DNA of 64,000 bases from assembly GCA_007693745.1 (NCBI GenBank), contig REDA01000045.1, positions 1 to 64,000 of the forward strand, in the 5' to 3' direction. Below are positions 62,487 through 62,805 of this stretch, in pieces; the first letter of the stretch is position 1, and every line of letters starts with the position of its first letter. The notes beneath the pieces are model-generated. The model was not told the origin of the DNA. It saw only the letters and a list, made by a program, of their open reading frames with translations, and made no database searches. The translations under genes and the position numbers were made by a program. Source of the DNA: Balneolaceae bacterium (GTDB lineage: Bacteria > Bacteroidota > Rhodothermia > Balneolales > Balneolaceae).

Positions 62487-62522
62487 AAAAGCTCCGATCT
62501 TATTGTGAGATCGGAGCTTTTG
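62487..62522. terminator. Bidirectional terminator
   Basis: AAAAGCTCCGATCT and AGATCGGAGCTTTT form a perfect stem of about 14 bp with a 7-nt loop between the propeller gene and the convergent tRNA-Arg. It serves both directions. Confidence 0.88.
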
Positions 62523-62526
62523 TTCG

Positions 62527-62600
62527 TACACCCGACAAGATTCGAACTTGTAACCGCCTGATTCGTAGTCAGGTACTCTATCCAGTTGAGCTACGGGTGC
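62527..62600 (-). tRNA. tRNA-Arg (anticodon ACG)
   Basis: A 74-nt cloverleaf: acceptor GCACCCG/CGGGTGT, D arm AGCTCAACTGGATAGAGT, anticodon stem CCTGA/TCAGG with loop CTACGAA (ACG), T arm ACAAG-TTCGAAT-CTTGT, discriminator A. No encoded CCA. Confidence 0.95.
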
Positions 62601-62625
62601 ATGTAAATTTCATTCAGTATGTAAA

Positions 62626-62698
62626 TGTGTCCGACAAGATTCGAACTTGTAACCGTCCCGACGCCTCGGGATACTCTATCCGGTTGAGCTACGGGTGC
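62626..62698 (-). pseudogene. tRNA-Arg pseudogene with hairpin instead of anticodon loop
   Basis: A tandem copy of the tRNA-Arg 26 bp away, identical in the 5' acceptor strand and T arm and with one change in the D arm. The 3' acceptor strand is CGGACAC, which mismatches GCACCCG at three positions. The anticodon arm is TCCCGA-GGCG-TCGGGA, a 6-bp stem with a tetraloop (or 5 bp with a 6-nt loop), so no 7-nt anticodon loop exists. It cannot decode. Probably a decayed duplicate with an inserted palindrome. Confidence 0.8.
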
Positions 62699-62805
62699 AT
62701 TTTTTACAGACCCAAAAATTAACACATTTTCTTTTCTATTACAACCAAAGCTCTCCGGATCAGGTGAATTCACCTGATGAAAACAGGCAGCATATCCTGC
62801 ATGAG

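Follow-up and report, generated by a model that had tools for sequence, protein, structure and literature searches.

Just upstream of an intact tRNA-Arg(acg) gene lies a second, partial tRNA-Arg copy in which a short and perfectly palindromic hairpin stands in place of the anticodon arm. Copies so marked recur at other tRNA genes of the same genome, in sister genomes, and across the order. They do so, that is, in association with small GIY-YIG genes which lie on the same strand as the tRNA and form tRNA-type-specific lineages, and which at tRNA-Asp co-occur with the copies. An earlier note on this DNA took an isolated, decayed copy to be the simplest reading, and that recurrence is why a lone decayed copy is rejected here. 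To the Arg copy instead being a hairpin-marked partial tRNA duplicate, i.e., a relic of a SegB-like homing element of tRNA genes, we give about an even chance.

The window, meaning the whole of the 64,000-nucleotide stretch of Balneolaceae DNA that was analyzed, carries both tRNA sequences on its minus strand (Table 1), with the order of transcription being broken copy, spacer, intact tRNA-Arg(acg), and then a terminator-like hairpin. The broken copy is located 5' of the intact gene and is therefore the first transcribed of the two. Its sequence, coordinates, and palindrome (TCCCGA-GGCG-TCGGGA) are as previously described, and the earlier suggestion that a hairpin replaced the anticodon arm, rather than the arm having gradually decayed, holds. 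Here 16 nt of hairpin stand for 17 nt of tRNA (t28-44), with t1-27 and the T arm retained. Within the window the exact hairpin pattern has this single site, with matches of up to 3 mismatches found at chance level.

Table 1. Features of the window locus and, below these, tRNA arrays found elsewhere in the same genome (positions are those of the window unless a contig is named).
Feature	Position	Strand	Basis or remark
Terminator-like hairpin (intrinsic) of the tRNA unit	62487..62521	-	
Intact tRNA-Arg(acg)	62527..62600	-	ARAGORN, Rfam, folding
Spacer between copy and intact gene, 25 bp	62601..62625	-	No conservation in G002 or G004
Broken tRNA-Arg copy: t1-27, hairpin, T arm, mispaired 3' acceptor strand	62626..62698	-	ARAGORN, Rfam, folding
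Perfect 16-nt hairpin at the place of the anticodon arm	62656..62671	-	Pairing kept in G002 and G004
Stretch 5' of the copy, presumed tRNA promoter region	62699..62754	-	Conserved in G002 and G004
tRNA-Asp array: three hairpin copies, 178-bp repeats, GIY-YIG gene	C98:37577-38418 (L006, L070)		
Downstream array of tRNA 3' ends, Arg(tcg), period 101 bp	C69:65318 (L008)		
Downstream array of tRNA 3' ends, Met, period 133 bp	C15 (L009)		
Downstream array of tRNA 3' ends, Pro, period 99 bp	C34 (L014)		

That the copy is not a working tRNA, as had been suggested, is seen in several ways. ARAGORN calls the intact gene as tRNA-Arg(acg) at 62526-62600 and labels the copy 'tRNA-???', with a two-letter anticodon. 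The covariance-model comparison which had been proposed earlier, i.e., with the Rfam tRNA model, gives 65.4 bits to the intact gene versus 35.6 bits to the copy (gathering threshold 29), the latter with three mispaired positions in its acceptor. RNA folding yields a cloverleaf for the intact tRNA and none for the copy. By these approaches together, the copy lacks both the valid anticodon and the paired acceptor stem of a functional tRNA.

The genus, with the window's own genome counted, offered 19 loci in which the intact tRNA-Arg(acg) was read, and for 18 of these the sequence reaches 900 bp upstream. Three of the 19 have the hairpin copy upstream of the gene, i.e., the window's own genome (G000), G002, and G004; 9 genomes outside of the genus lack it. 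When aligned, the three copies are alike up to and including position 27, over the hairpin, and for the bases immediately after it, while the spacer leading to the intact gene has diverged; the stretch 5' of the copy is conserved as well. The hairpin itself has two substitutions in G002 and one in G004, all three keeping pairing via G-U, though three such changes are weak evidence. A different Arg(acg) copy, in G010, is found downstream, with a hairpin-like segment inserted into its T arm.

Two alternative explanations may be judged against this comparison. An assembly artefact might be suspected, as the source assembly is in 100 contigs and such repeats can break contigs. The same copy is carried in the same arrangement by two other, separate assemblies of the genus, however, and because of this the Arg copy is not a local assembly error, artefact being largely refuted and now hardly credible. 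Alternatively, the copy might yield a functional tRNA-like or decoy RNA or, as the earlier note had proposed, serve as a source of fragments; the conserved 5' stretch makes transcription of the copy probable, and the pairing-preserving substitutions would fit with this. Neither the G000 nor the G002 copy has a cloverleaf fold, however (z of -0.54 and 0.01, respectively), and downstream copies often are without the 5' acceptor strand. As the 3' half, T arm, or acceptor stem has been lost in G000, G002, and G004, with the loss of acceptor or T arm differing between genomes, it is unlikely that such copies serve generally as decoys or sources of fragments, and we view a functional RNA product as highly improbable.

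In the window's own genome, partial tRNA copies form arrays at Arg(acg), Asp, Arg(tcg), Met, and Pro. The tRNA-Asp gene has one upstream copy and two downstream copies, the latter within 178-bp repeats, all with anticodon arms replaced by TCCCGATTACTCGGGA, and the array is followed by a GIY-YIG ORF of 93 aa (PF01541, 46 bits). The sole other GIY-YIG match in this genome is a 633-aa frame, which is taken as UvrC. As read by eye, the 178-bp Asp units retain the first codons of a GIY-YIG ORF fused to tRNA sequence, and because of this they have the appearance of units that underwent internal deletion. At Arg(tcg), Met, and Pro the arrays consist instead of the 3' ends of tRNAs, each preceded by another hairpin, GCGAAGCAGTGCTTCGC or one closely similar. 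This genome has 22 ordinary tRNA loci, and 23 tRNA matches if the broken copy is included; as the assembly, at 95% complete, shows just 22 ordinary genes, tRNA loci with arrays may be getting lost at contig breaks.

Hairpins in such copies were also counted across loci. Within the genus, 38 of 49 distinct split copies have a replaced segment with a stem of at least 5 bp, and outside of it 16 of 19 do. Pooling the non-empty segments gives 53 hairpins among 67, where shuffles give 3.66 (tandem copies, it should be noted, are not independent), and 46 of those 53 hairpins have a 4-nt loop. They occupy the D loop, anticodon arm, or T arm, and do so at recurring breakpoints, i.e., t31|t45 and t12|t20 in Asp and t23-25|t34 in Gly. 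The density of hairpins of 6+4+6 form is 7.85 per kb in split copies, 0.69 per kb in the rest of the same 66 loci, and 0 in intact tRNAs. Separately, tRNA-Ser copies at loci L085, L159, and L169 display double-hairpin segments of about 22 nt, located between positions 36/37 or 20/21 with no tRNA bases lost.

The hairpin is not, however, limited to tRNA copies, and here a plainer explanation must be weighed, that of ordinary decay of a tandem tRNA duplicate, with a dispersed palindromic repeat having by chance fallen into, or replaced, a stem. Asking whether the hairpin occurs elsewhere in the genome, as had been proposed, returned 6 sites for TCCCGANNNNTCGGGA, of which 4 fall within tRNA copies (1 Arg, 3 Asp), versus 0 for a reversed control. 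All 28 genus genomes have the pattern, at 2-45 exact sites each and again with 0 for the reversed pattern, many sites being outside of tRNAs in other repeats. Among the 67 sites read, which come from four genomes (three complete lists plus part of G008), 27 have a tRNA within 1 kb and 40 do not; 21 have tRNA-like flanks, with remaining sites found in dispersed repeats or in structured RNA genes such as that for RNase P RNA. A dispersed double-palindrome repeat, TGCGTGCAGTTCGCAG adjoining TCCCGANNNNTCGGG, also is seen (L055, L056, L061, L066, and L067), with several copies near contig ends.

In RNase P RNA loci (L256-L280), TCCCGA-type hairpins are found in different terminal stems in different genomes and, on alignment, mostly occupy stems that already exist. 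This pattern favors stem replacement over insertion, though it proves nothing. That terminal stems of another RNA bear such hairpins, along with the degraded 3' half of the window copy, is consistent with decay, and it is because TCCCGANNNNTCGGGA is dispersed away from tRNAs that a dispersed palindrome landing in dead copies stays alive as an explanation. Against this are the recurrence of breakpoints in Asp and Gly, a hairpin density in copies that is approximately 11-fold that of the remaining locus sequence, retention of the hairpin in three genomes while the spacer diverged, and the co-occurrence with GIY-YIG genes at tRNA-Asp, described below. Chance decay we therefore hold to be unlikely, if still to be reckoned with seriously.

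The hairpin might instead be a recognition site or an element end, one that is bound or cut by the GIY-YIG protein or by another factor, with the copies then representing the ends of elements. Within a given tRNA lineage the stem is nearly constant while the 4-nt loop varies freely, and in some loci, i.e., at the genome's own Asp and that of G025, up- and downstream hairpins are identical. Between lineages stems differ yet stay paired (TCCCGA, TCCGCC, TCCCGC, TTCCGA). These features a recognition site could explain. In some lineages a stem also changes on both sides at one tRNA position (TCCGCC to TCCGTC in Met copies). The dispersed hairpins are not all beside GIY-YIG genes, however, and hairpin copies are present without the gene at Asp of G027 and G003, as well as at Arg(acg). 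The absence of a REP-type Y1 transposase also counts against this explanation, which on balance we deem improbable. That same absence, i.e., 0 matches to PF01797 in the own, 95% complete genome, led to the rejection of RAYT-driven REP palindromes as a candidate.

What ties the copies to a putative homing element is the GIY-YIG genes. Matches are present in 28 of 28 genus genomes, many of them ORFs of approximately 85-130 aa. From these matches, 83 distinct small ORFs were read as a subset, and 57 have an ARAGORN tRNA within 600 bp, every one (57/57) on the same strand as the tRNA. The other 26 have no ARAGORN tRNA within 600 bp, some having tRNA fragments only and some being at contig ends. 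In the order outside of the genus, a tRNA lies no more than 600 bp from 32 of 40 such ORFs (34 loci). When order and phylum loci outside of the genus are combined, 78 of 89 distinct ORFs are within 1.5 kb of a tRNA, with 78/78 on the same strand; these outside loci are best-scoring or hand-picked, so that their tRNA-neighbor fractions should not be read as unbiased estimates. Of the order genomes 80 of 128 match the family model, as do 219 of 394 genomes of the phylum sample, where a match alone does not imply a tRNA neighbor. A search with Rfam of 20 GIY-YIG loci, chosen mostly for having no clear tRNA, found no RNA family.

The tRNA-linked ORFs have a GIY-YIG domain with conserved active-site residues. 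Across 22 proteins Y, S, Y, G, R, H, and P are invariant, and E is found in at least 90%, these being what we take to be residues of a catalytic type. In relatives the unit is laid out as tRNA, terminator, GIY-YIG ORF, hairpin copy, and a similar terminator, with the stop codon of the ORF (TAG) falling inside the tRNA-like 5' part. Exact tandem arrays of the ORF exist as well, e.g., five at tRNA-Leu(cag) (L347); in distant phylum genomes L347, L348, L349, L351, and L353 are exact or near-exact tandem arrays of 3-5 ORFs, at Leu, Asp, or Ser tRNAs. A phage origin of the enzyme was considered and rejected, one query protein having given 3 weak phage matches, none of which covered 80%.

These genes are consistently placed at tRNA genes and in lineages specific to their targets. 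In a tree of 80 genus ORFs, 59 of them labeled by tRNA, there are 10 changes of tRNA label, which is the minimum for 11 types, versus 40.9 with labels shuffled and 45 changes for host genome; 14 rows, of which 13 carry no tRNA label, form a separate group in this tree. Among the 169 rows of the phylum tree there are 27 changes (minimum 17, shuffled 96.9), and the four ORFs linked to Arg(acg) all fall to the same side of a branch. The alignment is short, at approximately 105 columns, leaving deep forks unresolved, and the clustering by tRNA type could partly come from vertical inheritance at a fixed locus.

Co-occurrence was tested at tRNA-Asp, a gene found in 24 of the 28 genus genomes and readable on both sides in 19. 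Seven of those 19 have both the upstream hairpin copy and a GIY-YIG gene, 1 has the copy only, 0 have the gene only, and 11 have neither (one-sided Fisher approximately 2e-4, computed by hand and ignoring kinship). One of the seven, G016, has a 54-aa GIY-YIG fragment. Four more genomes have the Asp copy on a contig that runs out no more than 125 bp past the tRNA, and in G021 the upstream side is cut off. G003 has five downstream hairpin copies with no GIY-YIG gene there, which speaks against too simple a reading.

At the window locus itself there is no GIY-YIG gene, nor a clear remnant of one, beside the tRNA-Arg(acg) copy (a remnant search gave sub-threshold scores only), and the locus consequently is not a complete homing element. 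The 19 genus loci in which an intact tRNA-Arg(acg) was read likewise have no such gene beside it. GIY-YIG ORFs do, nevertheless, occur upstream of this tRNA gene in two distant genomes of the phylum, G175 and G321, where they are preceded by 5' tRNA pieces that bear hairpins, which indicates that Arg(acg) can be a target. With no local enzyme and a targetable tRNA, the window copy is classified as a hairpin-marked partial copy rather than a complete element.

How a homing element could give rise to these arrangements can be imagined as follows, with cleavage, homing, and a protective hairpin all being things that we infer. The GIY-YIG nuclease would cut its own tRNA gene. Recombinational repair against partial copies would then spread the nuclease gene while leaving tandem partial copies both up- and downstream, with one intact tRNA always kept through the cycle. 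Conversion of an arm into a hairpin would strip from the extra copies the cut or recognition sequence along with tRNA function, flanking homology meanwhile staying. The Arg(acg) copy of the window would be a relic of this process, or instead a part without its own enzyme. The anticodon-arm stretch of intact tRNA-Asp is identical in 24 of 24 genomes, enzyme or not, from which it follows that something other than this sequence must determine any cutting there. Protection by sequence change, furthermore, leaves the palindromic form of the replacement unexplained, and why the arms of redundant copies become hairpins, rather than simply being lost, is a question that these loci raise.

In E. coli, the tyrT/rtT region has, downstream of a tRNA gene, short tandem repeats that contain the 3' end of the tRNA, and the present downstream arrays are similar in that they too are tandem repeats bearing tRNA 3' ends. 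We know of no GIY-YIG gene and no arm-replacing hairpins in association with those E. coli repeats. A closer likeness is to SegB of T-even phages, also a free-standing GIY-YIG nuclease found beside tRNA genes. The SegB enzyme of phage T6 is reported to cleave within tRNA genes, with motif RAWTSGAAC (PMC13096335), which by our reading is the complement of T-loop sequence. It is also reported to bring about tandem amplification of the tRNA together with truncated segB, through recombination that probably takes place where the 5' end of the tRNA and the 3' end of segB share microhomology (PMC13096335; PMC2988022). The end of the bacterial ORF likewise runs into tRNA 5' sequence, and truncated ORF–tRNA fusion units occur. 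The present loci differ, however, in being bacterial and chromosomal, in that their cleavage is presumptive, and in having hairpins that replace tRNA arms in extra copies. In addition, each lineage here is tied to one tRNA type, whereas segB association is reported to favor no particular isotypes (PMC13096335).

Mobile hairpin repeats are described too, including repetitive hairpin-forming elements of sponge mitochondria, i.e., small palindromes that spread (PMC2800124), and IS1272, with which inverted-repeat targets are replaced (PMC5678879). Unlike those, the present palindromes are at arm positions of tRNA copies beside GIY-YIG genes. Open-licence literature, as searched by title and abstract, contained no description of bacterial chromosomes in which GIY-YIG genes are accompanied by hairpin-marked copies of tRNAs.

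More tentatively, and at somewhat less than an even chance, genomes of Bacteroidota type may host phylum-wide, minimal selfish elements. Each would consist of a nuclease of approximately 90 residues, devoted to one tRNA gene per lineage, plus hairpin-marked partial copies that serve as cleavage-proof homology arms, with one intact tRNA left, and the window would then hold an enzyme-less Arg(acg) relic. If true, such elements would account for the recurrent tandem tRNA fragments, and probably for contig breaks, at tRNA genes in many genomes of the phylum, and they would represent a bacterial, tRNA-type-specific counterpart of phage SegB.
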